A stretch of DNA of 64,000 nt, from NCBI RefSeq assembly GCF_001543895.1, contig NZ_JYIJ01000018.1, positions 186,001 through 250,000 of the forward strand, in the 5' to 3' direction. Positions 4,444 to 54,115 of the stretch are shown here, piece by piece (position 1 is the first letter of the stretch; each line of letters starts with the position of its first letter). The notes under the pieces are model-generated. The model made no database searches and was not told where the DNA came from. It worked only from the letters and a program-made list of their open reading frames with translations. Source of the stretch: Carbonactinospora thermoautotrophica. Its GTDB lineage: Bacteria; Actinomycetota; Actinomycetes; Streptomycetales; Carbonactinosporaceae. A program made the position numbers and the translations under genes.

Positions 4444-4917
4444 CTACGAGGGAGTCGCTTCGGTCTGGCGCAGGATTCTGCTTGCCATGGGATGGCCGTC
4501 CACGAGTTGCCGCAGCACGCTTGAGGCGAGATAGCGGTAGCTCTGTGGCGGATGGAACGGCTGGGACGAGCGGAGATGAGCCAAGGGAACGGGCGTGGGA
4601 AGCTGCTCAACGTCGGTGAGCAGCAGGGCGCACGCCTGCGAGGCCCCAGCCATGTACTGGTCGAATTCTTCGCGGGTGAGCGCGGTGTGGGCGTGGAAGG
4701 ACGACCACACGTCATCGGGTTCGGCCACGTGGACCTCTGCCACGCGCGCCGTTCCGACGACCGCCATGACTGGAGCGGTGGCGTACAAGATGACGGTCGT
4801 GCCGGGCGGAACGGGGATCCGCTGGCGGCGTAGCTCCACGGACTTGGTGCCTTCCAGGATGGAAGTGGCGAAGCGCGGGTGCAGAGACAGCAGCAATGCG
4901 CGTTTGTGATCGCTCAC
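4444..4917 (-). CDS. Stand-alone ASCH-domain protein
   Basis: 157 aa, GTG start overlapping the stop of the larger upstream gene (GTGA). The N-terminal half shows the ASCH (PUA-like) signature: LLLSLHPRFATSILEGTKSV followed by ELRRQR, then a beta strand (TTVILYATAPV) and VVGTARVAEVHV. ASCH domains are predicted to bind RNA or modified nucleic acids. It is coupled to a GNAT-PIN-ASCH fusion protein, so the two probably act on the same substrate. No catalytic residues beyond the family core can be named. Confidence 0.8.
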   Translation of the reverse strand: MSDHKRALLLSLHPRFATSILEGTKSVELRRQRIPVPPGTTVILYATAPVMAVVGTARVAEVHVAEPDDVWSSFHAHTALTREEFDQYMAGASQACALLLTDVEQLPTPVPLAHLRSSQPFHPPQSYRYLASSVLRQLVDGHPMASRILRQTEATPS

Positions 4918-7037
4918 TCCGTGGACCGACCTTCCTGGTAGACAGCCGCGAAGAGTTCGGTACTGATCTTCGACGTCGACCTTACCGTGACGGTCTGGCC
5001 AAGCGCCCCGGCCAGTGCTTTCAGCCGCTGAAGGCTGACCGGCTTGGGGAACATCTCAGTATCGGCGAAGCGCAAGGCGAGAGCTCGACCCTTGTCCGCA
5101 GCACCCTCGACGTGTTCCCGGCTCCAGACTCCGAGGTGCTGGAAGCGGGCGTGCAGCGCCACGGGGTCGTCCACGACGACTTCCTCCAGGCGCGAACAAC
5201 CGATGACCGACGAGATCTGCTGCCCCTTGTCACTGCTTCCGTACCACAGGATGCGCGCTGGAGCATGCTCCCCGCGCGAGTGGGGGCTGCGGTAGTACAC
5301 ATGCTCCCGGCTGATGCCCAGTTCCTCTGGGCGGGGGATGAGAGATGCCGGTATGCCGAACAGCATGCTGGACCACTGCGGCTGAATCGGAACCAGGAAC
5401 GTCTCCAGATCGGAGTCGGTGATCTTCGCGGGCCAGAGTCGGCGTTCCAGGCTTGACGCCACTACTGCGGACATTCCAGGCTCCAGCACCGGGAAGGCCA
5501 GGCCCGCGCGTGCTGCGGCGTTCGAGGCTGCTGTGCCGACGGCCTCAGAGTCCCCGCACACGTCGATGACGAGGGCCACCAGGTCCTCACCTTGCGGGAC
5601 GAAACCGTCGTCGATGGCGGCCGAGCGTACGACCGCGGGCGCGTGGGGGTCTGCGACGCGTAGCACGCTCAGGCGTAGCTCCCGGCATCGCTTGCGAAGC
5701 AGGAACAGCATCTGGCGGGCGAGGGTATCGGCGAGCGGAGTCGAGCGGACCCGCAGAAAGGGCACCACCAACTCGTGGTTCCGTACCCTCGCGGCATAGA
5801 AAGCGACTGGGTGGCCGTCAGGATCGCGTATCTGCTTGCGTTCCCACCGCAGGGGGCCAACGGCGAGTTCACGCAGACGTGCGAGGAACACAGACTGTCG
5901 CTCGCCCCCCGGCCTGTCCAGGAAATCGAGCTGATTCCGCTCGGTACCGGAGGGGAGTGTGACCATGCTGTATTCGGTATCCAGCAAACTGGCTGGCTGA
6001 TAGACCTGCGCGCGGGTGAGCTCATCAACGTGTACTGCCACGTCCACCGGCCGCAGGATGCGGACCTGGCAGACATCCAGCGCCACTTCCGCCAGTCGCA
6101 GGAGAGAATCGTCCCGCGTGACCAGGAACCGCACCCCCGCGGTTGCGGCCTCCGCGATGTATCGGATGCCCTCGCCGTCCCCCGGTCTGGTCGACAGCTC
6201 CGAACCCAGGCGCTCCCGTGCCGTGGTGACCAGCCGTTGGATCATGTCGTCGACCAGGTTCGTATCCGGATTCAGCAGCCGGTAGCCTTGGACCTCGGCT
6301 CGCTGTCGTCGTCTCTCCGCAGCGTCGGATATTCGGTTGAGCTCCCGTAACAGCGTCGGGGTCACGACTAGTTCGACTAGATCGGCAAGCCAGTCGGCGA
6401 GGAGCCCTTTGGACTCCTTCGCACCGATGCGGTCGTGGGAGGCATGTAGGTCGGCGAAGACGTTCCAGTCCATCGCGACCGTCAGCAGCGCGGGCGTCTC
6501 CACAACCGAGAACAGATCCGGATGCCCGTGGTCCCGCCACCACACGCCTAGCGGCAACCGCTGCTTGCCTCGGCCGGGAACCTCCCCGCGCGGCTGGAAG
6601 CCCAGCTTTAACCACATGTCGTCAAGGCCATAGTCGCGCCGGCACTTCAACACGATCCCGAACCGGTCCGAGTGGCGCCTGCTGATCTCGTCCACCAGCA
6701 GACGCGCGATGCCGCGACCCCGGAACTCGGGGGCAACACACAGGTGCGTGAGCCGAACCTGTTGACGGGGTAAGGCGTACAGCGCGTATCCGACCACCGC
6801 GTCGTCGCGTAACGCGGCCAGTAGCGTTCCCTTTGCCGCCGCCTGCTCGAAGGCGGAGGGTGTCAGGAAACCGAGTGTCTTGCTCGCCCGATCCCCAAGC
6901 TCGATGATGGCTGCGATTACCGATTTCTCGCCGGGTTCGACCTGCCGTATCCGGACGCCCGGTCCGTCCTCGCCCCCTCCTCGCACCATGGTGTCAGTGT
7001 CCTGGTTCGCATGGCCCCGTGTTGAAGGTGTCACCAT
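4914..7037 (-). CDS. Multidomain GNAT - PIN-like - ASCH-like protein
   Basis: About 707 aa from the ATG at 7037 (a TTG at 7055 and an ATG at 6989 are alternatives; no start has a strong ribosome site). The N-terminal 160 residues are a GNAT acetyltransferase with the acetyl-CoA loop EFRGRGIARLLVDE. Residues of about 185-345 look like a PIN nuclease: MDWNVFADL, TPTLLRELNR, GDGEGIRYIAEA and VTRDDSLL supply the acidic positions. A second GNAT-like segment follows, and the last 170 residues start VPIQPQWSSML and resemble an ASCH/EVE-type PUA fold. A nuclease, an acetyltransferase and an RNA-binding fold in one chain, plus a coupled ASCH protein, point to an RNA-directed activity, perhaps toxin-like or defensive. 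This is inference from domains. Confidence 0.75.
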   Translation of the reverse strand: MVTPSTRGHANQDTDTMVRGGGEDGPGVRIRQVEPGEKSVIAAIIELGDRASKTLGFLTPSAFEQAAAKGTLLAALRDDAVVGYALYALPRQQVRLTHLCVAPEFRGRGIARLLVDEISRRHSDRFGIVLKCRRDYGLDDMWLKLGFQPRGEVPGRGKQRLPLGVWWRDHGHPDLFSVVETPALLTVAMDWNVFADLHASHDRIGAKESKGLLADWLADLVELVVTPTLLRELNRISDAAERRRQRAEVQGYRLLNPDTNLVDDMIQRLVTTARERLGSELSTRPGDGEGIRYIAEAATAGVRFLVTRDDSLLRLAEVALDVCQVRILRPVDVAVHVDELTRAQVYQPASLLDTEYSMVTLPSGTERNQLDFLDRPGGERQSVFLARLRELAVGPLRWERKQIRDPDGHPVAFYAARVRNHELVVPFLRVRSTPLADTLARQMLFLLRKRCRELRLSVLRVADPHAPAVVRSAAIDDGFVPQGEDLVALVIDVCGDSEAVGTAASNAAARAGLAFPVLEPGMSAVVASSLERRLWPAKITDSDLETFLVPIQPQWSSMLFGIPASLIPRPEELGISREHVYYRSPHSRGEHAPARILWYGSSDKGQQISSVIGCSRLEEVVVDDPVALHARFQHLGVWSREHVEGAADKGRALALRFADTEMFPKPVSLQRLKALAGALGQTVTVRSTSKISTELFAAVYQEGRSTE

Positions 7038-7129
7038 TCCGTGATCGTTTTGCAATCATGGGTGAGCGGCTCGGAGCCTGAACAGCCAGATCGTCGAATC
7101 CCGGCACGGCAACCCCCCGAGTCAACCGG

Positions 7130-7373: not shown

Positions 7374-7466
7374 GGCGGGCCGTGCGGGCGGTTTCTCTCG
7401 GGTCACCAGGGTTGCGGGGGCGTTGTTGGATTGGTGGCGCGGGAGTCCGGGCCCGCACGGCCCGCC
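7374..7466. repeat. TIR-bounded 93-bp element, copy B
   Basis: Perfect 15-bp terminal inverted repeats (7374-7388 and 7452-7466). In reverse complement it matches 1994-2087, with most of the differences confined to about 20 interior bases. It lies 11 bp from the 48-bp palindrome at 7478. Confidence 0.7.
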
Positions 7467-7477
7467 GGCTCCGGCCG

Positions 7478-7525
7478 CGTCGAGTGTGCGTGTCGTCACA
7501 CGTGTGACGACACGCACACTCGACG
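7478..7525. repeat. 48-bp perfect palindrome, copy 1 of 3
   Basis: Two 24-nt arms meet without a loop (centre ACAC/GTGT). The same element, 50 bp long, is at 21433-21482 and 54066-54115. Here one base pair in each arm differs (GAGTG...CACTC instead of GGGTG...CACCC), so both arms changed together. It lies at the 3' side of the minus-strand microprotein operon. Confidence 0.9.
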
Positions 7526-7552
7526 GAAAGGCCCGGCCGGCGGGGCACCACG

Positions 7553-7586
7553 GGGGACGGTGTACCGGCCGGGCCAGGCCGTCCCC
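7553..7586 (-). terminator. Hairpin closing microprotein operon B
   Basis: Same arms (GGGGACGG / CCGTCCCC) as the hairpin after operon A, here with an 18-nt loop, 44 bp past the last stop of the minus-strand operon. Confidence 0.5.
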
Positions 7587-7630
7587 GCCCCGGGAGGCGG
7601 CGAGGGTCGGGGCAGCCCGGGAGGGTGGCC

Positions 7631-7738
7631 TCAGCGGGGCAGCCAGCCGAGTTCGTACAACAGGCCGGGCAACGCCAACAGGGCCAGGCCGACCAGCAGG
7701 ATCAACGCGACTTTGGCCTCACGGCTGAGCCGGCGCAT
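7631..7738 (-). CDS. Microprotein operon B, last gene: 35-aa membrane peptide
   Basis: Encodes a 35-aa peptide that starts MRRLSREAKV, has a hydrophobic stretch (ALILLVGLALLALPGLLY) and ends ELGWLPR. It is a clear paralogue of 1416-1523 on the other strand: same length, same topology and same ending. Its start lies within the preceding frame, as in operon A. Confidence 0.7.
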   Translation of the reverse strand: MRRLSREAKVALILLVGLALLALPGLLYELGWLPR

Positions 7739-7882
7739 CGGGCACCTTCTTCCCGTACAGGAAGGCGATCTCGCTCGGGGTCAGCAACAGTGAGCACGGG
7801 CCGCACGGGTGGCCGTTCACGGTGCCGGTGCTCATGAGCAGGTGGCGCACGCGGGGTCGATGACGGCGCGCGGTTCGGTCAT
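7719..7882 (-). pseudogene. Microprotein operon B zinc-ribbon gene, split in two frames
   Basis: The first frame (7832-7882) gives MTEPRAVIDPACATCS and stops. The second (7719-7835) starts at an ATG overlapping that stop and gives a 38-aa protein with CGPC and a tail ending DAPAQP. Together they line up with the intact 63-aa protein of operon A (CATC, CTPC, HAPAQS). The spacing between the two cysteine pairs is shorter and out of frame. This is either a frameshifted gene or a natural split into two coupled peptides. Confidence 0.6.
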
Positions 7883-8121
7883 TCGCGCCACCCCCAGGTG
7901 TGGACGTGCCGCTCGACGCTGTCGCGGACCTGCGGGTGGGTGGCGAGCAGGCTGATCAGCGCCTCGGTCGCGCTGGTGAGCCACTTGGGGTAGCTGAGCA
8001 GGTCCTGCACCGAGGGGTTGGGGTGCTGGGCCCAGGCGCGGACCTGTTGCAGGAACTCCTCCACGCTCATCGGGCGGGAGGCCCCGTTCTGCCGGGTGGG
8101 TTCCGGGTGGGGGATGGTCAC
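7879..8121 (-). CDS. Microprotein operon B, second gene (80 aa)
   Basis: GTG start overlapping the upstream stop. It is the paralogue of 996-1247: MTIP start, Pro-rich linker, EEFLQQVRAWAQHPNPS, VQDLLSYPKW and the HVHTWGWRE end. It stops inside the ATG of the next gene (ATGA). The two copies have diverged a good deal outside these blocks, so the duplication is not recent. Function unknown. Confidence 0.75.
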   Translation of the reverse strand: MTIPHPEPTRQNGASRPMSVEEFLQQVRAWAQHPNPSVQDLLSYPKWLTSATEALISLLATHPQVRDSVERHVHTWGWRE

Positions 8122-10012: not shown

Positions 10013-10723
10013 CTAGCGGGTGACGGTGACGGCGCCGAGGCCGTGGGTGGTGCCGCGGCCGAGGCCGGCGAGGCCGGCGAAGAGGCTCAGGGTGGTGAAG
10101 GCGGCGGCGAGGGGGTGGGGGGTGTCGCGGGGGATGTGGAAGGTGACGGTGCCGGTGAAGCCGACGCTGACCCGCCCGTGCCAGGTGAAGGGCCGGGTGC
10201 GGATGTCGTGGTCGCGCACGGTGACGGTCTTGGCCAGCTCGCGGGCCTGTTCGGGGGTGAGGGTTCCGGTGGCGCCGCGGAGGGCGAGGTAGCGGCGGGC
10301 GAGGCTGGTGTAGGTGATGTGCGGGTCGGGCAGCGGGTAGTCGCGGCCGTGGTGGTGGAACACGGCGGGGCTGGTGACGTCGAACCGGACGCGGTAGGCG
10401 ACCGGGGCGGCCTCCAAGGCGGGGTAGGGGATGATCTCCTGCCCGGTGGCGACGACGGGCACCCGCCAGGGGCCGACGGGCAGGGCGGCGGGGATAGTGA
10501 CGGCCGGGGGCGGGTCGGTCAGCCAGGTGAGGGTGATGCGCGGCCCGGCGGCCAGGCCACCGGGGGTGGGGGTGACGCGGGCGGCGAACGGCTTGGTGGT
10601 GGCGGTGTGGTCGCTGTGGGGGTGTTCGAGCAGGGCGCAGGCGATGCCGTGGACGGCGTCGTAGCGGGTGTGCAGCGGGTCGCCGGGATCCTCGGCCAGG
10701 TCGATGGTCCAGCGGGTGGGCAT
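10013..10723 (-). CDS. cas6: Cas6 CRISPR repeat endoribonuclease
   Basis: 236 aa, ATG with GGAGGAC upstream. Cas6 cuts the CRISPR transcript within each repeat to give crRNAs with an 8-nt 5' handle. Seen here: an N-terminal ferredoxin-like half with the helix HTRYDAVHGIACALLE, which holds candidate catalytic histidines; the internal block DVTSPAVFHHHGRDYPLPDP; and a C-terminal glycine-rich loop (GLAGLGRGTTHGLG, residues about 219-232), the RAMP hallmark. It is transcribed away from the cas10 operon with a degenerate repeat between them. An inverted repeat just past its stop (about 9964-9985) may terminate it. Confidence 0.9.
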   Translation of the reverse strand: MPTRWTIDLAEDPGDPLHTRYDAVHGIACALLEHPHSDHTATTKPFAARVTPTPGGLAAGPRITLTWLTDPPPAVTIPAALPVGPWRVPVVATGQEIIPYPALEAAPVAYRVRFDVTSPAVFHHHGRDYPLPDPHITYTSLARRYLALRGATGTLTPEQARELAKTVTVRDHDIRTRPFTWHGRVSVGFTGTVTFHIPRDTPHPLAAAFTTLSLFAGLAGLGRGTTHGLGAVTVTR

Positions 10724-10792
10724 CGTGCGGTCGTCCTCCAGCGGCGGGCGGTCTGGCCGCTACGGTAGCCGGGAGATCGTCGCAGCCCGCGA

Positions 10793-10848
10793 CCGCCGAA
10801 AACGACGAAGGGTAGCCCCACGTCGCCCGCACGAAAGGGCCGCATACG
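10793..10848 (+). CRISPR. Decayed leader-repeat relic between cas6 and cas10
   Basis: CCGCCGAAAAC and GACGAAGGGT match the end of the leader in the other two units, and 10812-10848 lines up with the repeat, keeping the core CGCCCGCACGA and AAGGGC. The GTTTCC start and GAAAC end are lost, so it is unlikely to be functional. Confidence 0.55.
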
Positions 10849-11269
10849 CCTAGCTGGGTCGGAGGGGGAGCTGGGCGGTTCGGTTGTGCCCGTGCTGCGG
10901 ATGTGACGTGCGCGAGGGTACCGCCTGGCGTAAATACGTCGAAGGGTTGTCTCGTGGTGGCGGACGACCGCGCGGACCCGGTCAAATGATCGACGCGGTC
11001 GTGAAAACGACCGCGTGGTGGACCCGCGGGGTCGTTCGCGTGATGTGTCGAGGGCGCGCGGAGGACTGAGGCGGGTCGGTTCGCCGTATGGCGGGGAGGC
11101 TCTGCGGGGGATTCGGATGCCGATGCAGGATCTGGTGTTCGCTTTCTGCGGCGTTTCGGCGGGGACCGGTGAGGTGCGCTCGGCGTCGGCGGCTGGGGGC
11201 TCCGAATGGTCTGGAGCGTCTGCCGTGGTGGGTGGTCGGGTGCGGTGGTTGCCTGAGCGGGGGTAGGCG
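10849..11269. other. Gene-free stretch upstream of cas10
   Basis: No supported gene. It holds a hairpin at 10993-11016 (ACGCGGTCGT, GAAA tetraloop, ACGACCGCGT; 10-bp perfect stem). The promoter of the cas10 operon should lie here. Confidence 0.5.
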
Positions 11270-12895
11270 GTGGCGTGGGTTCATCTGGTGCTGTTCGAGG
11301 CATGGAATATTACGCGGTTCGTGTTCGTGACGAACAAGCGCCGGGAGATCGCCGGGGCGTCGGAGCTGATCACCTACCTGGACCGGCGGTGGGTGTACGA
11401 AGCGTTGGGGCGGGTGTTTCCCGGGTTCGCCGAAGAGTGGCGGGTGGAGGAGCGGCCGGCGGAACTGCTCGCGGCGGGGGCGGGCAGCGTGAAGGTGCTG
11501 GTCCGGGATCGGGAGTCGGCGGTGCGGCTGGTCACGGAGGTGACGACGGCCGTGTTGCGGGAGGCGCCGGGCCTGGACGTGTGCGGGGTGGTAAGCGAGC
11601 CGTTCGACTGGGCGGCTGACGGCCAGTTGGCGGAGGCGGTGCGGCAGGTGCACCGGGACTTCGCGGCGGTGCGCACAAGCCGGCCGGGCCCGGACGCGCG
11701 GTTTTTGCGCCTGCCGGTGGTGGACGAGTGCGCCACCACGGGCTTGCCGGCCGCGGTGCTGGTGGCGCAGCCGGATGGGGGGGGTGAGCCGCGGTCGGCG
11801 GAGAGCCTGGCGAAGTGGGTCGCCTACGGCAAGCGGGACGAGGGGGACGGGCTGGCGCGGCTCGCGGCGCTGGCGGGGACAACGCCGCAGGCACTGGGCC
11901 GGGTCGTGCGGTACCTGAGCGATGAGGCTGAGTGGGTGGGTGTCGTCTACGTGGACGGCAACGGGCTGGGACAGGTCTTCCAGCACTTCGAGCGGTGCGT
12001 GCCGGACGGGACGAACCGCTCCTACGCGGACACGCTGCGTGGCTTCACGACAGGCCTGCAGGAGTGCGCGGAAGACGCGTTCCGCGCCGCGGTGGCGGAG
12101 CTGTCCGGGCCGCCGACGGAGCCGGATGGCCCGGGTGGTCCGGACGGCCGCGATCGTGTCGTGCCGGTGTTGCCGCTGATCCTCGGCGGGGATGACCTGA
12201 TCGCGCAGTGCGACGGGGCGGTGGCGTTGCCGTTCGCGCGCGCGTACCTGCGGGCGTTCGAACGACTGACCGGCGAGCGGCCGGAGATCACCGAGGCGTT
12301 GCGGCGTGGCGGGCTGGCTCCGAGGCTGTCGGCGTCGGCGGGGGTGGCGATCGTGAAGCCGCACTTTCCGTTCGAGGCGGGCGCCCGGCTGGCGTACGCG
12401 TTGCTGAGGGAGGCCAAGCAGGTCAAGGCGCAGGTGGCGGGCCCGTGCGCGGGGCTGGCGTTCCACGTGCTGTACGACAGCTCGGACGCGGACCTGGCGC
12501 GGCTGCGCGGGCAGGCCACGCTGGGGGACGGCACACGGCTGGTGGCGCAGCCGTACGTGGTCAGCGACGTGCCGGCCGACGAGGGGTGGATGCGGGGCCG
12601 GCACTGGCACGACTTGGTGCGGCGGGTCGCCGCGCTGCGGGCGGTGGATGAGGACGGGGAACGCCTGCTGCCTGCCGCGCAGTTGCACGACCTGCGCGCG
12701 GGGTTGTTCTTGGGCAGGGAGGTGGCCGATGCCCGGTTCGCCAACCTGGTGTCGCGCTACCGGGGTCGGGGACTGGAGGCGCTGGCGGGCACGGGGGACA
12801 GCCTGTTCTGGGCCGAGCCGTCGGGGCGGTATGTGACGGGGTTGCTCGACGCCCTGGACGCGGCCGATTTCGTCTCTGCGGGGGCGGGGTCGTGA
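11270..12895 (+). CDS. cas10: Cas10, cyclase-type, without HD domain
   Basis: 541 aa from the GTG. It begins directly with a Palm-like region (FVFVTNKRREIAGASELITY), with no preceding HD nuclease domain, so the usual target-activated DNase seems absent. The second Palm domain has VGVVYVDGNGLGQVF (about 222-236) and an intact GGDD (residues 306-309, context LILGGDD), the active site that makes cyclic oligoadenylates from ATP on target RNA binding. SASAGVAIVKPHFPFEAG follows, also typical of Cas10 Palm 2. At 541 aa it is short for Cas10. It overlaps the next gene by 4 bp (GTGA). Expected role: large subunit of the effector complex and signal generator. Confidence 0.9.
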   Translation: MAWVHLVLFEAWNITRFVFVTNKRREIAGASELITYLDRRWVYEALGRVFPGFAEEWRVEERPAELLAAGAGSVKVLVRDRESAVRLVTEVTTAVLREAPGLDVCGVVSEPFDWAADGQLAEAVRQVHRDFAAVRTSRPGPDARFLRLPVVDECATTGLPAAVLVAQPDGGGEPRSAESLAKWVAYGKRDEGDGLARLAALAGTTPQALGRVVRYLSDEAEWVGVVYVDGNGLGQVFQHFERCVPDGTNRSYADTLRGFTTGLQECAEDAFRAAVAELSGPPTEPDGPGGPDGRDRVVPVLPLILGGDDLIAQCDGAVALPFARAYLRAFERLTGERPEITEALRRGGLAPRLSASAGVAIVKPHFPFEAGARLAYALLREAKQVKAQVAGPCAGLAFHVLYDSSDADLARLRGQATLGDGTRLVAQPYVVSDVPADEGWMRGRHWHDLVRRVAALRAVDEDGERLLPAAQLHDLRAGLFLGREVADARFANLVSRYRGRGLEALAGTGDSLFWAEPSGRYVTGLLDALDAADFVSAGAGS

Positions 12896-15201
12896 CGGTG
12901 TTGCGGGTCGCGGTGACCATGCTCAGCGACTGGCACGTCGGTACCGGCGCAGGCCGGCACGGTGTCGTCGACCGGATGGTGCAGCGGGACCGGGACGGGT
13001 TGCCGTACGTGCCGGCCAAGACCCTGGTGGGGGTGTGGCGGGACGCGTGCGAGATCGCCGCGTACGCGCTGGACGAGGGCGAATCGGGGGTGTGGGGCGC
13101 GTGGGTGGAGTACTTGTTCGGCAGTCAGCCGGCGCTGAGCGAGCGCGGCGTGCTGCCCGCCTCGGGCACCGGGCGCCCGCGCGAGGCGGCGCTGGTCGTG
13201 TCCAGCCTGCACTACCCACGGTCGGTGGCGGCGGCGCTGGCGGGCAAACCGCTGGTGCGGACGGCGGTGACCTTCCCCAAACCGGGCGTGGCCATCGATC
13301 CGGCCACCGGGCGGGCGGCCAACCGGCTGCTGCGGTATGAGGAGATGGCTCGGGCCGGGGCGGTGCTGGTCGGCCAGGCCGAGATCCTGGGGTTCGCTGG
13401 GCTGGACGCCGAGCGGCAGCGATGCGTGGCCGCGCTGCTGGGAGCCGGGGCGCGGCTGGTGGAGAGCTTGGGCGGCAAGCGGCGCCGCGGCGCGGGCCGG
13501 TGCCGGCTCGAGGTCGACGGCTTGGCGGTGGACTGGGACTGGCTGCGGGAGACTCCCACGCCGCCCGGCCCGCCGCAGCAGCCGGAGACGGCGGCGCCCT
13601 CGGCGTCGTCCCCAGTGCCGTCCTCAGGGGCGGCGCCCGAGGCGACGGGCGGGGATTGGGAGATCGCTGAGCTGCGCCTGGTGCTGGACAGTCCGCTGGT
13701 GGTGCACGAGCGCACGGTCGGCAACGCGATCCGCAGCCTGGACCACGTGCCGGGATGGGTGCTGCTGCCCGCTGTGCTGCAGCGCCTGGCCCGCCCGGAG
13801 GCGGCCGAGGCGGCGCGCCGTGGCGATCTGGTCGTCACCAACGCCACCGTGGAGGTCGACGGTCGGCCGGGCCGCCCCGCGCCGCTGGCGCTGGTGCACG
13901 ACAAGGAGGATGCGTCGCGGCTGTGCAACCTGATGGCCGAGTCGGTGCCGGACGGGCTGCGCGCGGAGTTGTTCGACGGCGCCTACGTGGGGGAGTACAC
14001 GCCGGGGCGGCCGCTGCCGGTACGGCACTGCCCGCGCAGTGAGCATGCGCACAACACGATCGACGACGCGGTGCAGCGGCCCACCGAACAGGTCGGCGGA
14101 GTCTACACCTACCAGGCTATCGCGGCCGGCACCGTGCTGCGCGCGCAGGTGCGGGCCCGGGAGGGGCTGCTCGCCCCCGGTTGGCCCGAGCGGTTGGCCG
14201 GCGTCTGGCGGCTTGGCCGGTCGAGGAAGGACGACTACGGGCGGGCCCGGGTGACGGCGACACCGGCCCGTCCACCCGATGCCCGGCCGGTGCCGGTCGG
14301 GCCCTTGCGGGTGTGGCTGCTCTCCGACGCGCTGGTCGTCGACGAGCGGCTGCGCCCGAGCACCGACCCGGCGCACCTGGCCGCGGCGTTGGGCCGGGCG
14401 TTGGGGGTCACACTGCGGCCGCTGCCCGACCCCGGCGGGGCCGGCCTCGCCACCCGGGCGAGTGAGGCCCGGCGGCTGGAGTCCTGGCACCGCCGCTGGG
14501 GCCTGCCCCGTCCCACGCTGCTGGGGCTGCGCGCCGGCAGCTGCCTGTCGTTCGAGGTGGTGAGCGGGACGGTCGATCCGGAGGCGGTGCGGCGGGTGGA
14601 GCTCGCCGGGGTAGGGCTGCGCCGGGCCGAGGGGTTCGGGCAGGTCCGGATCGGGGACCCGCTGTTGCACGCAGCGTTTCGCGGCGCGCCCGCCGACGGC
14701 ACGCCCACCCCACCGTCGGAACCGGCACCACCCCTGCCGCCCCTGGGGGAGCATGCCGGGATGGTACGGGTGGTCGAGGAGGCCGCCTGGCGGCAGGAGA
14801 TCCGCCGCGCCTGCGAGGCGCTGGCCGCCACCAGGCGCGGCCGGGTGCTCGGCGAGGGGTACGAGCAGGTGCCCCCGTCGCAGCTGGGGGCCTTGCGCGT
14901 GCTGGTCACCAACCTGACGGGCCCGCGTGATGCCCGCGCCGGGTGGTGGCTGGACCGGCTGACCGCGACACGGGGACGCCAGAGCGCCTGGCCCGAGGCG
15001 ACCCGACACCAGCTGCGCCGGCTGCTCACCGAGCCCGACACCGTGTGGGAGATCCTCGCCCTGCCCGAGGCCGACCTGACCGTCACCGAGAACGGGCGGG
15101 CGGAGCTGCGCGAGCGGCTGTGGGCCGAGGCGGTGCGCACCCTGGTCACCGATTGCCTCACCGCACACGCCCGGGCCGTGGATGCGCGAGGGGAGGCCTG
15201 A
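12892..15201 (+). CDS. Cas7-Cas5-Cas11-like fusion (Csx10-type RAMP protein)
   Basis: 769 aa, GTG start coupled to cas10. Three parts are visible. Residues 1-210 are a RAMP/Cas7-like domain (MLSDWHVGTGAGRHGVVDR, PYVPAKTLVG, and a glycine-rich GGKRRRGAGRC near 193). After a Pro/Ser linker, residues about 250-600 form Csx10/Cas5-like RAMP folds (VLDSPLVVHERTVGNAIRS, RLGRSRKDDYGRARV, and GVGLRRAEGFGQVRIG near 575). Residues about 620-769 are helical without RAMP motifs, as expected for a Cas11-like small subunit. This three-in-one layout matches the Cas7-Cas5-Cas11 subunit of type III-Dv complexes. The Cas11 label is inferred from position and helix content. Confidence 0.75.
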   Translation: MTVLRVAVTMLSDWHVGTGAGRHGVVDRMVQRDRDGLPYVPAKTLVGVWRDACEIAAYALDEGESGVWGAWVEYLFGSQPALSERGVLPASGTGRPREAALVVSSLHYPRSVAAALAGKPLVRTAVTFPKPGVAIDPATGRAANRLLRYEEMARAGAVLVGQAEILGFAGLDAERQRCVAALLGAGARLVESLGGKRRRGAGRCRLEVDGLAVDWDWLRETPTPPGPPQQPETAAPSASSPVPSSGAAPEATGGDWEIAELRLVLDSPLVVHERTVGNAIRSLDHVPGWVLLPAVLQRLARPEAAEAARRGDLVVTNATVEVDGRPGRPAPLALVHDKEDASRLCNLMAESVPDGLRAELFDGAYVGEYTPGRPLPVRHCPRSEHAHNTIDDAVQRPTEQVGGVYTYQAIAAGTVLRAQVRAREGLLAPGWPERLAGVWRLGRSRKDDYGRARVTATPARPPDARPVPVGPLRVWLLSDALVVDERLRPSTDPAHLAAALGRALGVTLRPLPDPGGAGLATRASEARRLESWHRRWGLPRPTLLGLRAGSCLSFEVVSGTVDPEAVRRVELAGVGLRRAEGFGQVRIGDPLLHAAFRGAPADGTPTPPSEPAPPLPPLGEHAGMVRVVEEAAWRQEIRRACEALAATRRGRVLGEGYEQVPPSQLGALRVLVTNLTGPRDARAGWWLDRLTATRGRQSAWPEATRHQLRRLLTEPDTVWEILALPEADLTVTENGRAELRERLWAEAVRTLVTDCLTAHARAVDARGEA

Positions 15202-15202
15202 C

Positions 15203-16834
15203 ATGCCGCGCCCGGGACGCCCGATGCTGGCCCGGCTGCGGGTCCGCGGGTGGCTGCAGGTGCGCACCCCGCTGCACGTGGGCGGGGCGGAGCGGGACCC
15301 GAACGGGGACCTGCAGGTCGCGGTGAACGGCCGCGGCCAGCCCTACGTGCCCGGCACCAGCCTGGCCGGGGCGCTGCGCGCCTTCGCCGAGGGCGACCGG
15401 CCGCCCGCGGAGCGGCTCGACTCCCCCTGGGGGTACGTGATGCCCGGCACCCAGAAGGGGACCGCCAGCCGGGTGGTGGTCCAGGACGCGCTCATCACGA
15501 ACACTCCCAGCCTGGGCAAGGACGGTCTGCCGGACGACGTGCTCGACCCCGCCCAGCTGGAGACCCGGGTGTCGGTCGGGGTGGACCGGGTCAGCGGGAC
15601 CGCCGCGCACGGCTTCCTGCACGGGCGGCTCGTCGTGCCGCGCGGGGCGTACCTGCGGCTGGAACTCGACGTCGAGTCCACCCCGGACGACCTTGGGGAA
15701 GACCGGGTCTGGCTGGGACGGCTGTTGGGGGCGCTGGCCGAGGGCCGGGTGCGGTTGGGCGCGGCGAAGACCCGGGGCCTGGGCCGGGTGGAACTGCTCA
15801 CCGAGGCGTTGCAGATCCACGAGCAACGGTTCGACAACCGCGCCGGCCTGCTGGCCGCCCTGCACGGCGACGGCGGCCAGGCGTGGACGCTCACAGACCT
15901 GCGCCCAGACCAGGATCAGGCGGTGCGGCAGGCCCTGGGGATAGAAATCGGCTGGCGCCCGGCCGCGCCGGTCATGGTCCGCTCGGCCGTGGACGGTGTC
16001 GCCGTGGACGCGGTCCCGCTCACCAGCGCGACCAGCCCCACGCAGGTCGCGCCGGTCCTGCCGGGCAGCGCGCTGAAGGGCCGGCTGCGGGCCCAAGCGG
16101 AGCGGATCGAACGCACGGTGCGCGCGCTGGACGCGCCGACCGCCGGGGACGAGGCCGGGCCGGCCGAACGCAGCGCCGCCTTCCGCCGCCAGCTCGACCA
16201 GCTCGCGGCGGTGCGGGCCCTGTTCGGCGCCGCACCTGCCCCTCGCGCACGGGACACGACGTCGAACCCTGCCTCGGAGGAGGATTCCCGTGGGGTGGGC
16301 GCGGTCGCGGTCGACGACTGCTTCGCCACCTCGAGCATCCCAGCCGAGGTGTGGAACGCGGTGTACTGCGTGCCGGGCGACGACCCGCAGGCGGCGGGGG
16401 AGCCGCAAGGGCTGGACCCGGGTGCGCGCGAGGAGCTCGCCCGGTACGGGTTGGAGCAGGCCGACCACGTGGCGATCGACCGGTGGACCGGGGGTGCGGC
16501 GGAGGGCCGCCTGTACAGCGTGCTCGAACCGCACGGCCTCGCCTGGGAGCCGATCACCCTGACCGTGGACCTGGACCGGCTCGCCCGCCACCGGGACGTC
16601 TCCGCTGATGCGGCACTGGCCCTGTTGCTGCTCGTGCTGCGGGACCTCAAGGCCGGGCGGGTGCCGCTCGGCTACGCCACCAACCGGGGCCTGGGCGACA
16701 TCACCGTCGACGCCGTCACGCTCACTTTCCCCGACCAGCGAGGCCAGGTCGAGCTGGACGAGTTCCTGGCCTCGCCCGAGGCCGACCGCCTCACCGGCGC
16801 GTGGTGCGCCTACATCGACGGGAGCACCCCATGA
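15203..16834 (+). CDS. Double Cas7 (Cas7-2x / fused Csm3-like RAMP protein)
   Basis: 543 aa from the ATG that has GGGGAGG at proper spacing; an in-frame ATG at 15182 is less likely. Two Cas7 (Csm3-like) domains are joined head to tail. Domain 1 has LHVGGAERDPNGDLQVAV, where Asp36 is the candidate RNA-cleaving residue, PYVPGTSLAGALR, and the glycine-rich GAAKTRGLGRVEL near 186. Domain 2 has PVLPGSALKGRLRAQ near 288 and GYATNRGLGDITV near 490. Cas7 domains line the crRNA backbone and cut target RNA at 6-nt steps. The fusion corresponds to the Cas7-2x subunit of type III-Dv. Coupled to csx19 by an ATGA overlap. Confidence 0.82.
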   Translation: MPRPGRPMLARLRVRGWLQVRTPLHVGGAERDPNGDLQVAVNGRGQPYVPGTSLAGALRAFAEGDRPPAERLDSPWGYVMPGTQKGTASRVVVQDALITNTPSLGKDGLPDDVLDPAQLETRVSVGVDRVSGTAAHGFLHGRLVVPRGAYLRLELDVESTPDDLGEDRVWLGRLLGALAEGRVRLGAAKTRGLGRVELLTEALQIHEQRFDNRAGLLAALHGDGGQAWTLTDLRPDQDQAVRQALGIEIGWRPAAPVMVRSAVDGVAVDAVPLTSATSPTQVAPVLPGSALKGRLRAQAERIERTVRALDAPTAGDEAGPAERSAAFRRQLDQLAAVRALFGAAPAPRARDTTSNPASEEDSRGVGAVAVDDCFATSSIPAEVWNAVYCVPGDDPQAAGEPQGLDPGAREELARYGLEQADHVAIDRWTGGAAEGRLYSVLEPHGLAWEPITLTVDLDRLARHRDVSADAALALLLLVLRDLKAGRVPLGYATNRGLGDITVDAVTLTFPDQRGQVELDEFLASPEADRLTGAWCAYIDGSTP

Positions 16835-17430
16835 CTACCCCGACGACCACCCTGTACGCCCGGGCCGCGGACGGCATCGGCCTGCCGGACGCCCTGGCCC
16901 GTGCCGGTTTCCGCTCCGCCGTGGCGTTGCTGTCCACGCCGACCGCCCACACCGTCGCGCAGGTCCGCGACGGCGACTGCCGCACCCCCGCCGGCCCTTG
17001 CGACCTGGCCGAGGTGTTCGAGGCCCGGATCTTCAACCCCGAGATGGAGCTGCGCTGGCTGCACGAGGCGGGCGGGCTGGGCCGGGCGGTCGTCCTCGGC
17101 GAGGACGAGGCGGCGCTACCGGCGGCGTTCGGCGACCCGCTGGCGCCGCTCCACGCTATCGAGGTGCTCGCCGCGCACTACCTGCTGTGGGGTCGGCCCG
17201 TCGACGACACGCCTGAAGGGTGGACCACCCTGTACACCGCTCGCGTCGGGGTCCTGCGGGTGCCGGCCACGGTGTCCACCTCCGACCACCGGCTGCGGCT
17301 GGTGGCCCGCGAGTACGTCGTCGTCGAACCCCGGCACGGCAACGCCTATGTCGGCGAGGAACGCCTGCTCGGCTTGGAGGAGACGCCGGTGCCCGCTCCG
17401 GCCAGACAGGGGGAAGGCAGGACGCCATGA
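16831..17430 (+). CDS. csx19: Csx19 (type III-D subunit)
   Basis: 199 aa from the ATG overlapping the Cas7-2x stop. Features typical of Csx19: EARIFNPEMELRWLHEAG (about 64-81), YLLWGRP, LYTARVGVLRVP, RLRLVAREYV and the C-terminal GNAYVGEERLLGLEE. Csx19 marks type III-D loci; in III-Dv complexes it is a structural subunit. Its presence between the two large Cas7 genes fixes the subtype. Overlaps the next gene by ATGA. Confidence 0.82.
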   Translation: MTTPTTTLYARAADGIGLPDALARAGFRSAVALLSTPTAHTVAQVRDGDCRTPAGPCDLAEVFEARIFNPEMELRWLHEAGGLGRAVVLGEDEAALPAAFGDPLAPLHAIEVLAAHYLLWGRPVDDTPEGWTTLYTARVGVLRVPATVSTSDHRLRLVAREYVVVEPRHGNAYVGEERLLGLEETPVPAPARQGEGRTP

Positions 17431-19922
17431 GCGAGCAGACCCGCACCGGGGTGCTGGCCTGGGACGGTGACCGCAAGCGGCTGGTCATCGTCGAAGCCGG
17501 CGGCGGCAAGCCGCGCCCGGTCAGCAACCCCGACCGCGACCTGGCACCAGAGCTGCGGGCGCGGTTCGGCCCAGGCCTGGACGGGACGCGCGTCGACTTC
17601 ACCTGGCGCAAGGGCCAGCCACGCCAGATCCGCCCGGCCGGCGCCTCCGCCCCGGTACGCCCCGCCGCCCCCCGGCCCGTGGCCGCGGACAGCTTCCTCA
17701 ACCCCTACACATTCGTCCCCGCCCTCCCCCGCGACCACGCCGGCGGTGACCTCGCCGACGCCGTACCGATCGGCCACCACCGACTGGCCCCGCACCGGTG
17801 GAGCGGCCGCATCGGAGTGGTCCTCACCGTGGTCACCCCGCTGCTGGTCCTAGACACCGCCCGCGCCGACCGGGATCCCGCCACCGGGCACGCGACCTAC
17901 CCGGTGCTGCTGCGCGACGGCTCCCCACACCTGCCCGCCACCTCGGTCAAAGGCATGCTCCGCGCGGCGTACGAGGCGGTGACCAACTCCCGGCTGGGGG
18001 TTTTCACCGGCCACACCGACCGGCTCGCCTTCCGGATGCCGGCCGCCGACAGCCAGCGCATGGTCCCGGCCCGCATCAGCGACGACGGGACGAAGATCGT
18101 GCTGCTGCCCGGCGACACGCCCCCCGGCGGGCAGACGCGACCCAACCCGGTCCTGCACGCCGCCTGGCTGCCCCGCTACCGGGGCGCCTGCGTCACCTAC
18201 CCGGACAAGACCCTGCCCGGCCACGGGGACGAGGTGGAGGCCGAGGTCGAGCTGGTCCAGCACTACCGCTGGAACAAGTGGGCGAACCGGCACGAGGAGG
18301 ACTTCCAGGTGTGGCGGGTGCGGTCCCTGGCCCGCGCCGGACAGGCCCCGCCTGCCCCCACGGGCCAGCCGCCGCAGCCCCGACGCGCCGGCCGTTCGTA
18401 TTACGAGCCGACGGGGCGGACCAAGCGGATCCGCGGGTGGGTCTTCGTGACCAACCGCAACATCAACCGCAAGCACGATGAGCGGATCTTCTTCACCGGT
18501 GAGGAGCCCGAGCGGATCCACGAGCTGACCGGCGAGCTGCGCGCCCAGTGGGAGAACCTCATCCGCGACTACCGGGCCGCCCACCGCGAGGCCGAGATCT
18601 GGGAACGCCCCGGCAAGAACGGCGTGGTCAGGCCCGACGAGTACATCGACGACAGGCCCGGCCGCACGGCGTGGAGCCCTCACCTGTACGACGAGGGCTA
18701 TCTCGCCCTCAAGCCCGGCGACCTGTGCTATGCCCACGTGAACGACACCGGGGAGATCGAGGGCCTGTACCCGGTCGCGGTGTCCCGCCGCCTGTTCCGC
18801 GCCGCGCCGGAGGACTTGCTGCACCCCACCCTGCGCCCCGCGACCAGCCTCGCCGAGCTGTCCCCGGCCGATCGGGTGTTCGGCTGGGTGGCGCCGTCCG
18901 GCCCCGGTTCCTATCGGGGTCACCTGCGCGTCGGGCCGGTCACCTGCGACCAGGGGCCGGAGGCGGTCGCCGACTTCGGCGCCGACGGGGTGCCGCTGGC
19001 GATCCTCGGCCAGCCCAAACCGCAGCAGGGCCGCTTCTACCTCGCCCACAGCGCGCAGGCCCCGGACCGCCCGCTGTCACCCGGGCTCGGCAAGGACCGC
19101 TGGTACACCGAGGGCCAGGCCCTGCGCGGGCGCAAGGTGTACCGGCACCACGCCGGACTGCCCGAAGGCTACTGGGCAGACCCCACCGAGGACCGCACCC
19201 AACAGCTCACCGGCGGCCGCTACCAGGAGTACCGCCGGCCCCGCCAGGGCACCGAGAAGGGCGAACTCACCCCCGATGGGCGCGCTTTCGTCACCGACCC
19301 GGAGAAGGAACAGCGCGACGACCAGAACCGCTCGATCCGCGGCTGGATCCAACCCGGCACGACGTTCCGCTTCACCCTTGAGGTCGACAACCTCAGCGCA
19401 GTGGAACTCGGGGCCCTGGCCTGGCTGCTGCGACTACCCGAGGGGCACTACCACCGGCTCGGCTACGGCAAGCCGCTCGGATTCGGCAGCGTACGCCTCG
19501 ACATCGACCCAGCCCGCACCGACCTGCGCAGCGGCGAACAGTGGACCGCCTACTACCGCACGCTGCGCCCCGACACCAGCCCCAGCGCCGAGCACGCGGG
19601 CGAACACGCCTCGACGATCCTCGACCAGGCGCGCCACGCCTTCGAACAGGCCGCCGCCGGCGGCCAGCCGGTGAACCAGACACCCCACCTCGCGGCGTTC
19701 CTCGCCGCGGCCCAGGGCAGGCCGGGGGTGGCCGTGCACTACCCGCGCGTACGACCTGAAGGCATGCCCGAGGACGTCCCCGTGCCGCCCGACCCGCGCG
19801 GCCAGTCGTTCTCCTGGTTCGTCGAGAACGAGCGGCAAGAGCGCCGCCGGATCCGCACCGACCGCGGACTGAGCCTGCCCGCCGGAAACGAACCCCTACC
19901 CATCTACCCAGACAGCCGCTGA
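17427..19922 (+). CDS. TIGR03986-family RAMP protein (Cas7 with insertion)
   Basis: 831 aa. An N-terminal OB-like segment (TRTGVLAWDGDRKRLVIVEA) precedes the family signature NPYTFVPALPR (about 92-102) and the RAMP block LPATSVKGMLRAAYEA (about 168-183). A long insertion fills the middle, and the C-terminal RAMP end is HYHRLGYGKPLGFGSVRLDI (about 672-691). This corresponds to the Cas7-insertion subunit of III-Dv-like complexes. Expected to bind crRNA/target near one end of the complex. Starts inside the csx19 stop. An S-4TM gene follows after 48 bp. Confidence 0.82.
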   Translation: MSEQTRTGVLAWDGDRKRLVIVEAGGGKPRPVSNPDRDLAPELRARFGPGLDGTRVDFTWRKGQPRQIRPAGASAPVRPAAPRPVAADSFLNPYTFVPALPRDHAGGDLADAVPIGHHRLAPHRWSGRIGVVLTVVTPLLVLDTARADRDPATGHATYPVLLRDGSPHLPATSVKGMLRAAYEAVTNSRLGVFTGHTDRLAFRMPAADSQRMVPARISDDGTKIVLLPGDTPPGGQTRPNPVLHAAWLPRYRGACVTYPDKTLPGHGDEVEAEVELVQHYRWNKWANRHEEDFQVWRVRSLARAGQAPPAPTGQPPQPRRAGRSYYEPTGRTKRIRGWVFVTNRNINRKHDERIFFTGEEPERIHELTGELRAQWENLIRDYRAAHREAEIWERPGKNGVVRPDEYIDDRPGRTAWSPHLYDEGYLALKPGDLCYAHVNDTGEIEGLYPVAVSRRLFRAAPEDLLHPTLRPATSLAELSPADRVFGWVAPSGPGSYRGHLRVGPVTCDQGPEAVADFGADGVPLAILGQPKPQQGRFYLAHSAQAPDRPLSPGLGKDRWYTEGQALRGRKVYRHHAGLPEGYWADPTEDRTQQLTGGRYQEYRRPRQGTEKGELTPDGRAFVTDPEKEQRDDQNRSIRGWIQPGTTFRFTLEVDNLSAVELGALAWLLRLPEGHYHRLGYGKPLGFGSVRLDIDPARTDLRSGEQWTAYYRTLRPDTSPSAEHAGEHASTILDQARHAFEQAAAGGQPVNQTPHLAAFLAAAQGRPGVAVHYPRVRPEGMPEDVPVPPDPRGQSFSWFVENERQERRRIRTDRGLSLPAGNEPLPIYPDSR

Positions 19923-19970
19923 CCCCGTTCTCTGGACCCGACACGCCGTCTGCGATCACCAGTTAAGGCC

Positions 19971-20906
19971 ATGACCACTACCGATCCCGACCCCGCCCCC
20001 GTTCTCGGCCAGCCGCACCGAATCTGCCAGCGGCAGAACGAGACCCGCTTTCGGGAGATGCTCGCCGCCTACAGTTACCGGTACCGCGTCGCCAGCGTCT
20101 ACCGGCGCCTGCGGGTCACCGGCACCATCGCCCTCGCCGCCCTCGCCCCCGTCTTCAGCGTCCTCTGGCCGCAGGCCGCCCCCACCCTCGGCGCCGTCGC
20201 CGCCTTGTGGCTCGTCCTGGGCCGCACCCTGCTCGACGCCGCCGAACAAGCCCACATCGACCGCGCCGCCCGCATCCAGGAATACTTCGACACCCACCTG
20301 TTCGGCCTGCCCTGGAACCCCGACCTCGGCCGGGAAGAACTCGTCTGCGAGGACATCGCCACCGACGCCCGCCGTGGCCCCCGCCCCGACTCCGACCGCT
20401 ACCAGGACTGGTACGACGACGACGGCGCCACCCCCTGGCCCCTCGATGTTCTCCTGTGCCAGTACCAGAACGCTGCCTGGGGGCGACGCAACCACCAGGC
20501 CTACGTGCCCTGGCTCGCCGCCGCCGGCGCCGCTGTCTTCCTCCTCGGCCTGGCCCTCGCGATCACCCGCCACATGTCCGTCTCCACCTACCTGGTGCAG
20601 CTGCTCCTGCCCACAAGTCCAGCTCTGCTCGACCTGGCCTTGCTCGCCCGCGACCACAAGCGCCACGCCACCGCCAAGCAACGGGTCGAGGACGACATCA
20701 ACAACCTGCTCAACCGCTACCTCACCGGGGAACAAGTCACAGCCACCGACTGCCGGAAAATCCAGGATGCGATCTACCGGCTACGCCGCACCGGGCCACG
20801 CATCCCCCACTGGTTCTACCGGAGCCAGCGCCAGAAAGACACACGCGCGACCGCGGCGAGCATCCAGCAACTACGTGACCGCATCAAAGCCAAGACCGCG
20901 AACTAG
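19971..20906 (+). CDS. S-4TM family putative pore-forming effector
   Basis: 311 aa, ATG after AAGG. Four membrane segments in two pairs: about 47-63 and 67-84 (GTIALAALAPVFSVLWP; LGAVAALWLVLGRTLLD), then about 177-197 and 202-222 (WLAAAGAAVFLLGLALAIT; YLVQLLLPTSPALLDLALL). Between them are family motifs: AARIQEYFDTHLFGLPWNP, YQDWYDDD and LLCQYQNAAWGRR. S-4TM proteins are predicted pore-forming effectors of nucleotide-signal defence systems. There is no CARF or SAVED domain, so how it senses a signal is unclear. Placement directly after the type III operon, before the right leader-repeat unit, suggests it is the membrane-active arm of this system. Confidence 0.85.
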   Translation: MTTTDPDPAPVLGQPHRICQRQNETRFREMLAAYSYRYRVASVYRRLRVTGTIALAALAPVFSVLWPQAAPTLGAVAALWLVLGRTLLDAAEQAHIDRAARIQEYFDTHLFGLPWNPDLGREELVCEDIATDARRGPRPDSDRYQDWYDDDGATPWPLDVLLCQYQNAAWGRRNHQAYVPWLAAAGAAVFLLGLALAITRHMSVSTYLVQLLLPTSPALLDLALLARDHKRHATAKQRVEDDINNLLNRYLTGEQVTATDCRKIQDAIYRLRRTGPRIPHWFYRSQRQKDTRATAASIQQLRDRIKAKTAN

Positions 20907-21432: not shown

Positions 21433-21482
21433 CGTCGGGTGTGCGTGTCGTCACACGCGTGTGACGACACGCACACCCGACG
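21433..21482. repeat. 50-bp perfect palindrome, copy 2 of 3
   Basis: Two 25-nt arms, identical to 54066-54115 over all 50 bp. Flanking GGCTCCGG upstream also occurs beside copy 1. It lies 75 bp past the stop of the PPOX gene (minus strand). Confidence 0.9.
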
Positions 21483-21557: not shown

Positions 21558-21953
21558 TCAGCCCATGACCGCCCTGGCGGTCGGGGTTATCCGGACGATG
21601 ACGCGTTCCTCGCCGGGCTGGCGGTACGGGTAGGTGTCGACGCCCAGGTACTTCTTGGCCAGCGCGTCGATGTGCTCGTCGGCCCCCTCCTCGATCAGCT
21701 CGGCCCGGCCCCGGATGGCCAGCATCTTGTAGGGGTTCGCGTCGTCGGTCAGCGAGACCGCCACGTTCGGGTTCCGGGTCAGGTTGCGGTGCTTGACCCG
21801 GCCCTTCGCGGTGTTGAACAGCACCGCCTCGCCGTCGGTGTCGATCCACACCGGGGTGACTTGGGGCGTGCCGTCCGGCATGACGGTGGCCACGTGGGCG
21901 AACACCGGCTTGCGCAGCAGCTCGATGTCCTCGTCGCTGAGCCGTACTGCCAC
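21558..21953 (-). CDS. PPOX-class (split beta-barrel) F420/FMN-dependent oxidoreductase
   Basis: 131 aa. The protein shows the pyridoxamine-phosphate-oxidase-like barrel: FAHVATVMPDGTPQVTPVWI, AVLFNTAKGRVKHRNLTRNP, NVAVSLTDDANPYKMLAIRG and a C-terminal VIVRITPTARAVMG. These short actinobacterial proteins are usually F420H2-dependent reductases (FDOR-B) and act in the cytosol on unknown substrates. The KGRVKHRNL segment is typical of phosphate contacts. It is a single-gene unit with the palindrome at its 3' side. The cofactor (F420 or FMN) cannot be settled from sequence alone. Confidence 0.85.
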   Translation of the reverse strand: MAVRLSDEDIELLRKPVFAHVATVMPDGTPQVTPVWIDTDGEAVLFNTAKGRVKHRNLTRNPNVAVSLTDDANPYKMLAIRGRAELIEEGADEHIDALAKKYLGVDTYPYRQPGEERVIVRITPTARAVMG

Positions 21954-52805: not shown

Positions 52806-54041
52806 ATGAGCGTCACCGCCGAGAACGCCACTCGCCAGGTCATCGCACTCGCCGAGGAGAGCAGCACGCACAACTACCACCCGCTCCCGGTCGCGATCGC
52901 GCACGCCGAGGGCGCCTGGGTGACCGACGTGGACGGCCGGCGGTACCTGGACTGCCTCGCCGGATACTCCGCGCTCAACTTCGGCCACCGCCACCCGGAC
53001 CTCATCGCCGCCGCCCGCGCGCAACTGGACCGGGTCACGCTCACCAGCCGGGCCTTCCACCACGATCAGTTCGGCCCGTTCTGCCGCGAGCTCGCCGACC
53101 TGGCCGGCAAGGACCTGGTGCTGCCCATGAACACCGGCGCGGAGGCCGTGGAGACCGGCATCAAGGTGGCGCGCAAGTGGGGGTACCAGGTCAAGGGCGT
53201 GCCGGACGGGCAGGCCACGATCATCGTCGCGGAGAACAACTTCCACGGCCGCACCACGACCATCATCAGCTTCTCCACCGACCCGGTGGCCCGCGACGGC
53301 TTCGGCCCCTACACCCCCGGCTTCAAGATCGTCCCGTACGGCGACGCCGAGGCGATCGAGCGGGCGATCGACGACACGACCGTGGCCGTGCTGCTGGAGC
53401 CGATCCAGGGCGAGGCCGGCGTGATCGTGCCCCCGCCCGGCTACCTCGCCGCGGTCCGTAAGCTCTGCACGGAGCGGAACGTGCTGTTCCTCGCCGACGA
53501 GATCCAGTCCGGCCTGGGCCGCACCGGCGCCACCTTCGCCTGCGACCACGAGGACGTCGAGCCGGACCTGTACCTGCTCGGCAAGGCGCTCGGCGGCGGC
53601 GTGGTGCCCGTCTCGGCCGTCGTCGGCGACCGGGACGTGCTCGGCGTGTTGAAGCCGGGCGAGCACGGCAGCACCTTCGGGGGTAACCCGCTGGCCTGCG
53701 CCGTCGGCCGGGCGGTGGTGCGGCTGCTGGCCACCGGCGAGTACCAGGCGCGCGCCCGCGAGCTGGGCGAGCACCTGCACGAACGGCTCGCCGCGCTGGT
53801 CGGCGACGGCGTGGTCGAGGTACGCGGCCGGGGGCTGTGGGCCGGCATCGACATCGACCCGGCGCTGGCCACCGGCCGCGAGATCTGCGAGCGGCTCGCC
53901 GCCCGGGGCGTGCTCGCCAAGGACACCCACGGCTCCACGATCCGGCTCGCCCCGCCCCTGGTCGTGGACAAGGACGAGCTGGACTGGGCCGTGGACCAGT
54001 TGGTGGCGGTGCTGCGCGAGGTGGCCCGCGAGCGGGCGTGA
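52806..54041 (+). CDS. rocD: Ornithine-oxo-acid transaminase
   Basis: 411 aa, ATG with AGGAGG upstream. Class III aminotransferase with the ornithine-specific pattern: STHNYHPLPVAIAHAEGAWV, DCLAGYSALNFGHRHP, ENNFHGRTTTIISFSTDP, ADEIQSGLGRTGATFAC and the PLP lysine in LLGKALGGGVVPVSAVV. Converts ornithine to glutamate semialdehyde. Placed after an Lrp regulator. It could draw ornithine away from other pathways, but no link to the siderophore locus is evident. Confidence 0.92.
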   Translation: MSVTAENATRQVIALAEESSTHNYHPLPVAIAHAEGAWVTDVDGRRYLDCLAGYSALNFGHRHPDLIAAARAQLDRVTLTSRAFHHDQFGPFCRELADLAGKDLVLPMNTGAEAVETGIKVARKWGYQVKGVPDGQATIIVAENNFHGRTTTIISFSTDPVARDGFGPYTPGFKIVPYGDAEAIERAIDDTTVAVLLEPIQGEAGVIVPPPGYLAAVRKLCTERNVLFLADEIQSGLGRTGATFACDHEDVEPDLYLLGKALGGGVVPVSAVVGDRDVLGVLKPGEHGSTFGGNPLACAVGRAVVRLLATGEYQARARELGEHLHERLAALVGDGVVEVRGRGLWAGIDIDPALATGREICERLAARGVLAKDTHGSTIRLAPPLVVDKDELDWAVDQLVAVLREVARERA

Positions 54042-54065: not shown

Positions 54066-54115
54066 CGTCGGGTGTGCGTGTCGTCACACGCGTGTGACGA
54101 CACGCACACCCGACG
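54066..54115. repeat. 50-bp perfect palindrome, copy 3 of 3
   Basis: Same 50 bases as at 21433-21482. It lies between the convergent rocD and aceE genes, next to a separate normal terminator (54144-54173), so ending transcription is not its only possible role. Confidence 0.9.

Follow-up and report, generated by a model that had tools for sequence, protein, structure and literature searches.

The perfect palindrome of 48-50 bp that occurs three times in the 64,000-nt stretch analysed here (the window) belongs to a family of about 65 copies dispersed through its own 5.13-Mb genome (5,134,156 bases, 19 contigs). The reading that we prefer, at a probability of roughly 0.6, is that these gene-end palindromes are tail-less (I-shaped) hairpins that work in both directions at 3' ends, with a terminator or mRNA 3'-end role, that they spread by duplication, and that they serve as the multicopy attB of a phage-satellite-like element.

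The palindrome in the window

The palindromes and the features beside them are the following.

7374-7466, no strand: cassette hairpin H1, arms 7374-7389 and 7451-7466 (GGCGGGCCGTGCGGGC / GCCCGCACGGCCCGCC), repeated with the cassette
7478-7525, no strand: palindrome copy 1, 48 bp, arms 24/24, loop 0, within the repeated cassette
7530-7575, no strand: cassette hairpin H3, GGCCCGGCCGGCGGGG ... GTGTACCGGCCGGGCC, repeated with the cassette
7631-7738, minus strand: 35-aa membrane-like ORF of the cassette, its 3' side toward the palindrome
21433-21482, no strand: palindrome copy 2, 50 bp
54066-54115, no strand: palindrome copy 3, 50 bp, identical to copy 2
54142-54176, no strand: G+C-rich ordinary hairpin with a short T run near copy 3, GGGCCCCCGCCC-ACCCAC-GGGCGGGGGCCCTTT

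Re-reading of the sequence bore out the first-pass annotation, which had placed exact palindromes at these three positions and had described copies 2 and 3 as identical and copy 1 as having a paired arm change and a shorter centre: the change lies at arm position 6, where both arms carry A:T in copy 1 and G:C in copies 2 and 3, and the centre also differs. The window contains no other 100%-complementary inverted repeats with arms of at least 24 nt and a short centre, and the 12-mer GTGTCGTCACAC, with at most one mismatch, has six matches there against 0.48 expected, all of them inside the three palindromes. An Rfam search of the window returned tRNA only.

Copy 2 lies between the S_4TM gene (20058-20906, plus strand) and a convergent PNPOx gene (21558-21953, minus strand), 75 nt from the stop of the latter. 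Copy 3 stands, as had been noticed, between core genes and beside a T-tailed terminator, 24 nt beyond the stop of an aminotransferase gene (52806-54041, plus strand) and 73 nt from that of a convergent pyruvate dehydrogenase E1 gene (54189-56930, minus strand). It is true, as was also pointed out at first, that a type III CRISPR locus lies between copies 1 and 2, but a link to CRISPR was rejected because copies are found genome-wide and the window holds only 3 of about 65, and the bracketing looks incidental. Positions 10013-20906 hold this locus (Cas6, Cas10 and several RAMP proteins) and then the S_4TM (SMODS-associating 4TM) effector gene. The palindrome cassette also adjoins a 713-aa ORF on the minus strand (4914-7055) with a GNAT acetyltransferase domain and a weak PIN-domain match.

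Size, sequence and distribution of the family

A genome-wide search with the 24-mer arm, allowing at most three mismatches, gave 66 forward and 65 reverse arm matches, and the intact inner core GTGTCGTCACAC..GTGTGACGACAC is present in 42 copies. The 63 members that were inspected all lie within the 2.29 Mb that were read. Their consensus arm is CGTCGAGTGTGCGTGTCGTCACAC (24 bp), the centre varies between 0, 2, 3 and 6 nt, the borders are sharp, and the flanks are unrelated from copy to copy, the exceptions being a repeated cassette and, in locus L049, a pair of sites that is duplicated. Other members also carry paired arm changes, such as CGTCGGG/CCCGACG, CGGCGAG/CTCGCCG, CGTTGAG/CTCAACG and CCCACGCGTGGG, and shorter perfect stems occur at L133, L159, L160 and L047. 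A second repeated hairpin (ATGGGTGTGCGTGCCGTGTCGGGGGCACGCACACCCAT) is present in four copies (L115:1658, L058:2656, L039:13264 and L039:17149) and has GTGTGCGTG in common with the palindrome arm.

The first-pass annotation had three copies and suggested a count across the genome and its relatives; against the roughly 65 copies in its own genome, which is the sole representative of its taxonomic family in the genome set, neither strict nor relaxed searches turned up any in 59 further genomes of the same order. GTDB contigs, viral contigs and plasmids, in which the own genome and very near records were left out, likewise gave no match, so that, within the reach of these collections, the family is specific to its lineage.

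Some copies, 17 in number, sit in the repeated cassette, which is made up of the 35-aa membrane-like ORF (product MRRLSREAKVALILLVGLALLALPGLLYELGWLPR), an 80-aa ORF in some cases, and flanking hairpins that form an array and are exchangeable. The cassette itself has roughly 20-25 copies, at 7374-8121 of the window and at L032, L042, L044, L045, L053, L060, L062, L072, L074 and L106-L110. Where a cassette is free of the palindrome, a different hairpin, GGCCGCCCGGCG..CGCCGGGCGGCC, takes that position, and hairpins thus seem to be swapped as modules.

Placement at gene ends

Placement was evaluated over 2.29 of the 5.13 Mb, in regions partly chosen for palindromes, with genes from a simple codon-usage gene caller of the author's own (78% coding). 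Within 30 nt of a copy there are 36 gene 3' ends, against 5.6±2.3 for random intergenic placement (maximum 14 in 2000), and a single gene 5' end, against 6.4 expected. Convergent gaps are enriched in copies (27 vs 10.6±2.9 expected) and divergent gaps are depleted (8 vs 18.6±3.6), the usual site being a few to a few tens of nucleotides beyond stop codons, between convergent or tandem genes. Cassette copies are different, as the closest annotated stop is about 110 nt away and they do not follow it directly. For the 46 non-cassette copies, 34 gene 3' ends lie within 30 nt, compared with 5.8±2.4 under a class-stratified, length-weighted null, which fits the question of where along intergenic DNA the copies lie; under a gap-equal null, which is very conservative because short gaps weigh as often as long ones, the expectation rises to 24.8±4.3 and the excess near stops is smaller.

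A scan for near-perfect hairpins with arms of at least 16 nt yielded 50 that are unrelated to the palindrome and are placed alike, mostly without a T tail, with 33 gene 3' ends and two 5' ends within 30 nt, although a few, L133 and L160 among them, are probably related to the palindrome and have diverged from it. Since this placement is shared by 50 unrelated sequences, long tail-less hairpins past stop codons are a habit of this genome, of which the palindrome forms the largest sequence-related set.

The same comparison bears on the possibility that the palindrome is a selfish REP- or MITE-like sequence with no role in transcription, moving through a hairpin intermediate and persisting solely at the least harmful places, just beyond genes. 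Its arms are identical in spite of unrelated flanks, three unrelated loci share an asymmetric 39-bp form (the same in L046 and L065, with one base different in L116), cassettes exist with and without it, and it is confined to one lineage, all of which would suit such an origin. Unrelated long hairpins are placed in the same way, however, so that position follows the hairpin and not this particular sequence; moreover, the copies come without target duplications, without a conserved flanking motif and without a neighbouring transposase, and the four Y1 transposase loci that were read have ends unlike the arms. We consider this explanation unlikely. The earlier suggestion of a small mobile palindrome survives in part, in that identical arms in unrelated flanks and the asymmetric variant at unrelated loci speak for it, while no mobilising enzyme was found.

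A putative two-way terminator

The predicted fold is very stable, from -44 to -47 kcal/mol at 37 C and -29 kcal/mol at 65 C, and only one of 63 copies has at least four T in the 8 nt behind either side. Within 50 nt of a copy there are 43 gene 3' ends, against 8.6±2.8 by chance, and this is the distance from the stop codon (50 bp) within which the I-shaped terminators of mycobacteria are found (PMC12288462); in Streptomyces clavuligerus, structured 3' ends that lack U and two-way terminators have been described (PMC8269248). Like these terminators of GC-rich actinobacteria (PMC12288462, PMC8269248), the palindromes combine a strong hairpin, the lack of a U tract and a position just behind stops, and would suit two-way action between convergent genes. 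Given their position, missing tail and symmetry, they probably end transcription in both directions. When transcribed from either side, a palindrome would fold into an RNA hairpin of about 22-23 bp, which would stop transcription or shield the mRNA 3' end in both directions, as an I-shaped terminator does. Other hairpins seemed depleted behind copy-bearing genes in a first test (p = 0.026), but the depletion was gone after length matching (2 vs 4.6±2.0). A terminator role is the best-supported among the functions that were raised at first, even though the family is not, as it might have been, a set of only three copies that are all plain terminators.

Terminators are normally unrelated in sequence. 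Unlike the I-shaped terminators described so far (PMC12288462, PMC8269248), for which the present case is a putative addition drawn from sequence, the approximately 65 palindromes have one 24-bp arm sequence in common. In 16 copies whose flanks resemble the cassette, in a few cases only in part, 31 of the 32 arms have the same outer 20 nt, whereas mean identity across the right flanks is 84%. The arm sequence is conserved beyond what pairing or termination needs, and recent spread, homogenisation or sequence-specific recognition must explain it.

Such conservation, together with a long perfect dyad, is what a double-stranded protein-binding site for a regulator or chromosome organiser would display over many copies. 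Nevertheless, the 0-6 nt variation of the centre would alter how the two half-sites are phased, arm-deleted copies are retained, and the copies avoid gene 5' ends, being found at gene 3' ends rather than promoters. The protein-binding site that had been proposed at first is therefore not favoured and seems highly improbable.

It had also been proposed that arm-matched changes mean that pairing or symmetry itself is kept. Many further paired changes agree with this, but template-switch repair of the palindrome could yield them without selection, and the changes may reflect either selection on pairing or templated palindrome repair. A stronger version puts them down to repair templated by the palindrome itself, through template switching or through gene conversion among arms or among copies, and not to selection on the hairpin, and holds that the family may lack a present function. 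In its favour, most changed full-length copies are altered in both arms, single-sided intermediates are few (L054, L068 and L074), and copies with diverged flanks still have identical arms. As a full account it is possible but rather doubtful, as it leaves unexplained both the 3'-end placement and the like placement of unrelated hairpins, and as a mechanism that keeps the arms alike it is compatible with the terminator reading. Under the latter, the arms would stay matched by selection on pairing, by palindrome-templated repair, or by both, and the copies would have been dispersed by some duplication process.

Comparison with REP elements and stem-loop families

A GTAG-like motif and mobilisation by a RAYT characterise REP elements (PMC8266576). 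No GTAG-like tetranucleotide is conserved at the foot of the hairpin in 12 flanking positions, and none of seven Y1_Tnp matches is a RAYT (TnpA-REP) bracketed by palindromes. Four Y1 loci were read, and only L179 contains a palindrome copy, 1.1 kb away; three of the four are near-identical elements whose ends are unlike the palindrome arms. Given the absent motif and these Y1 loci, membership in the REP/RAYT system was rejected on both the motif and the gene tests. The adjacent transposase that the first-pass annotation had proposed to look for is likewise missing next to the copies. IS605-type elements, in which a Y1 transposase is followed by a second ORF, are present at 61434-61787 of the window and at L178, L179 and L180; a pair of them shares 99.9% identity over 1.75 kb, and a third copy has 93%.

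The palindrome family is not REP, yet it behaves like REP and like the repeated stem-loop families of PMC2267715. It resembles both (PMC8266576, PMC2267715) in being small, dispersed, intergenic, 3'-biased and amplified in one lineage, and differs from them in its longer and perfect arms, in having neither a GTAG-like motif nor an adjacent RAYT, and in numbering dozens and not hundreds. Amplification in the manner of REP/SLS repeats is the best reading of its origin. A MITE with target duplication was rejected, as direct repeats of 2-8 nt are not overrepresented in the flanks, and a search for empty sites by joined flanks gave mostly noise from the high GC.

A satellite-like element at the palindrome centre

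The newly found part of this family's biology is a satellite-like element that, judged from its junctions, stands twice at the centre of a palindrome. Single half-sites had been considered as transposon ends, and this was replaced: two pairs are the attL/attR of one element, and the rest are degenerate or arm-deleted copies or chance. On contig C17, 9.65 kb of foreign DNA lie between two half-sites (L055 5316-14970), with a GC content of 65% against 72% for the genome window. The element encodes a large serine integrase of 474 aa (PF00239, PF07508 and PF13408; phrog_95), an excisionase-like HTH protein, an HNH/endonuclease VII protein and a terminase small subunit, a predicted gene set that resembles that of a phage satellite. 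Rebuilding from the junctions gives an attB, CGTCGAGTGTGCGTGTCGTCACA[CG]GGTGTGACGACACGCACACTCGACG, which is the 50-bp palindrome, and an attP, ..CGGCAAGCATACG[CG]CGTGTGCTTGCTGG.., that is, CAAGCATACG-CG-CGTGTGCTTG, and fixes the recombination core at L055 to the two bases CG.

The second site is at the end of contig C16 and the start of C13. Each contig breaks off after about 55 nt of identical element end, and an ordinary palindrome in an ordinary cassette results when the flanks of the two are joined. A second copy of the element is implied by these contig ends and probably broke the assembly there. The genome has only these four element ends, which are identical between the insertions, and both junctions of both insertions rebuild the standard palindrome and one attP. 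The palindrome is accordingly a predicted multicopy intergenic attB, on which the large serine integrase would recombine, and the early idea of a recombination site proves right for at least two copies, as junction rebuilding identifies them as attB of this element.

Dubu and Samy encode the most similar phage integrases (44% identity), and no relatives were confirmed in viral contigs. In Streptomyces phage Samy, attB is one conserved single-copy gene (PMC12924846). The two systems have in common a related large serine integrase and an attP that is an imperfect inverted repeat, while the attB of the present element, unlike the single gene used by Samy (PMC12924846), is multicopy, intergenic and fully symmetric, with a palindromic core that leaves orientation unfixed. 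IS elements that insert into REP palindromes are known (PMC1525189); here too a mobile element targets a dispersed intergenic palindrome, but by a large serine integrase in a satellite-like element and by conservative attB x attP recombination at a CG core (compare PMC1525189). A limited literature search found no report of a large serine integrase that uses such a repeat.

The palindromic CG core permits either orientation. With a palindromic attB the element would land harmlessly between convergent genes. Its integrase gene points inward at one end and another ORF points inward at the other, so the split hairpin may let host read-through reach these two inward-facing genes. Taken further, the satellite might specialise in two-way terminators, removing the stop by splitting the palindrome and taking the read-through of convergent genes into its two end genes, the integrase at one end, while a homogenising or copying activity keeps the host hairpins identical; this is speculative, and we hold it to be distinctly improbable.

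Implications

The repeat family is real and ordinary in kind, with a likely terminator role, and its use as a multicopy attB adds interest. With paired changes, identical arms and centres of variable length, the family offers a compact system in which to weigh RNA-pairing selection against templated repair as the force that maintains long palindromes. If the integrase works on the palindromes, they would form a natural multicopy insertion system that leaves genes unbroken. More broadly, dispersed gene-end hairpins can turn into shared infrastructure, in this genome as some 65 interchangeable, intergenic and symmetric landing sites predicted for a serine integrase.
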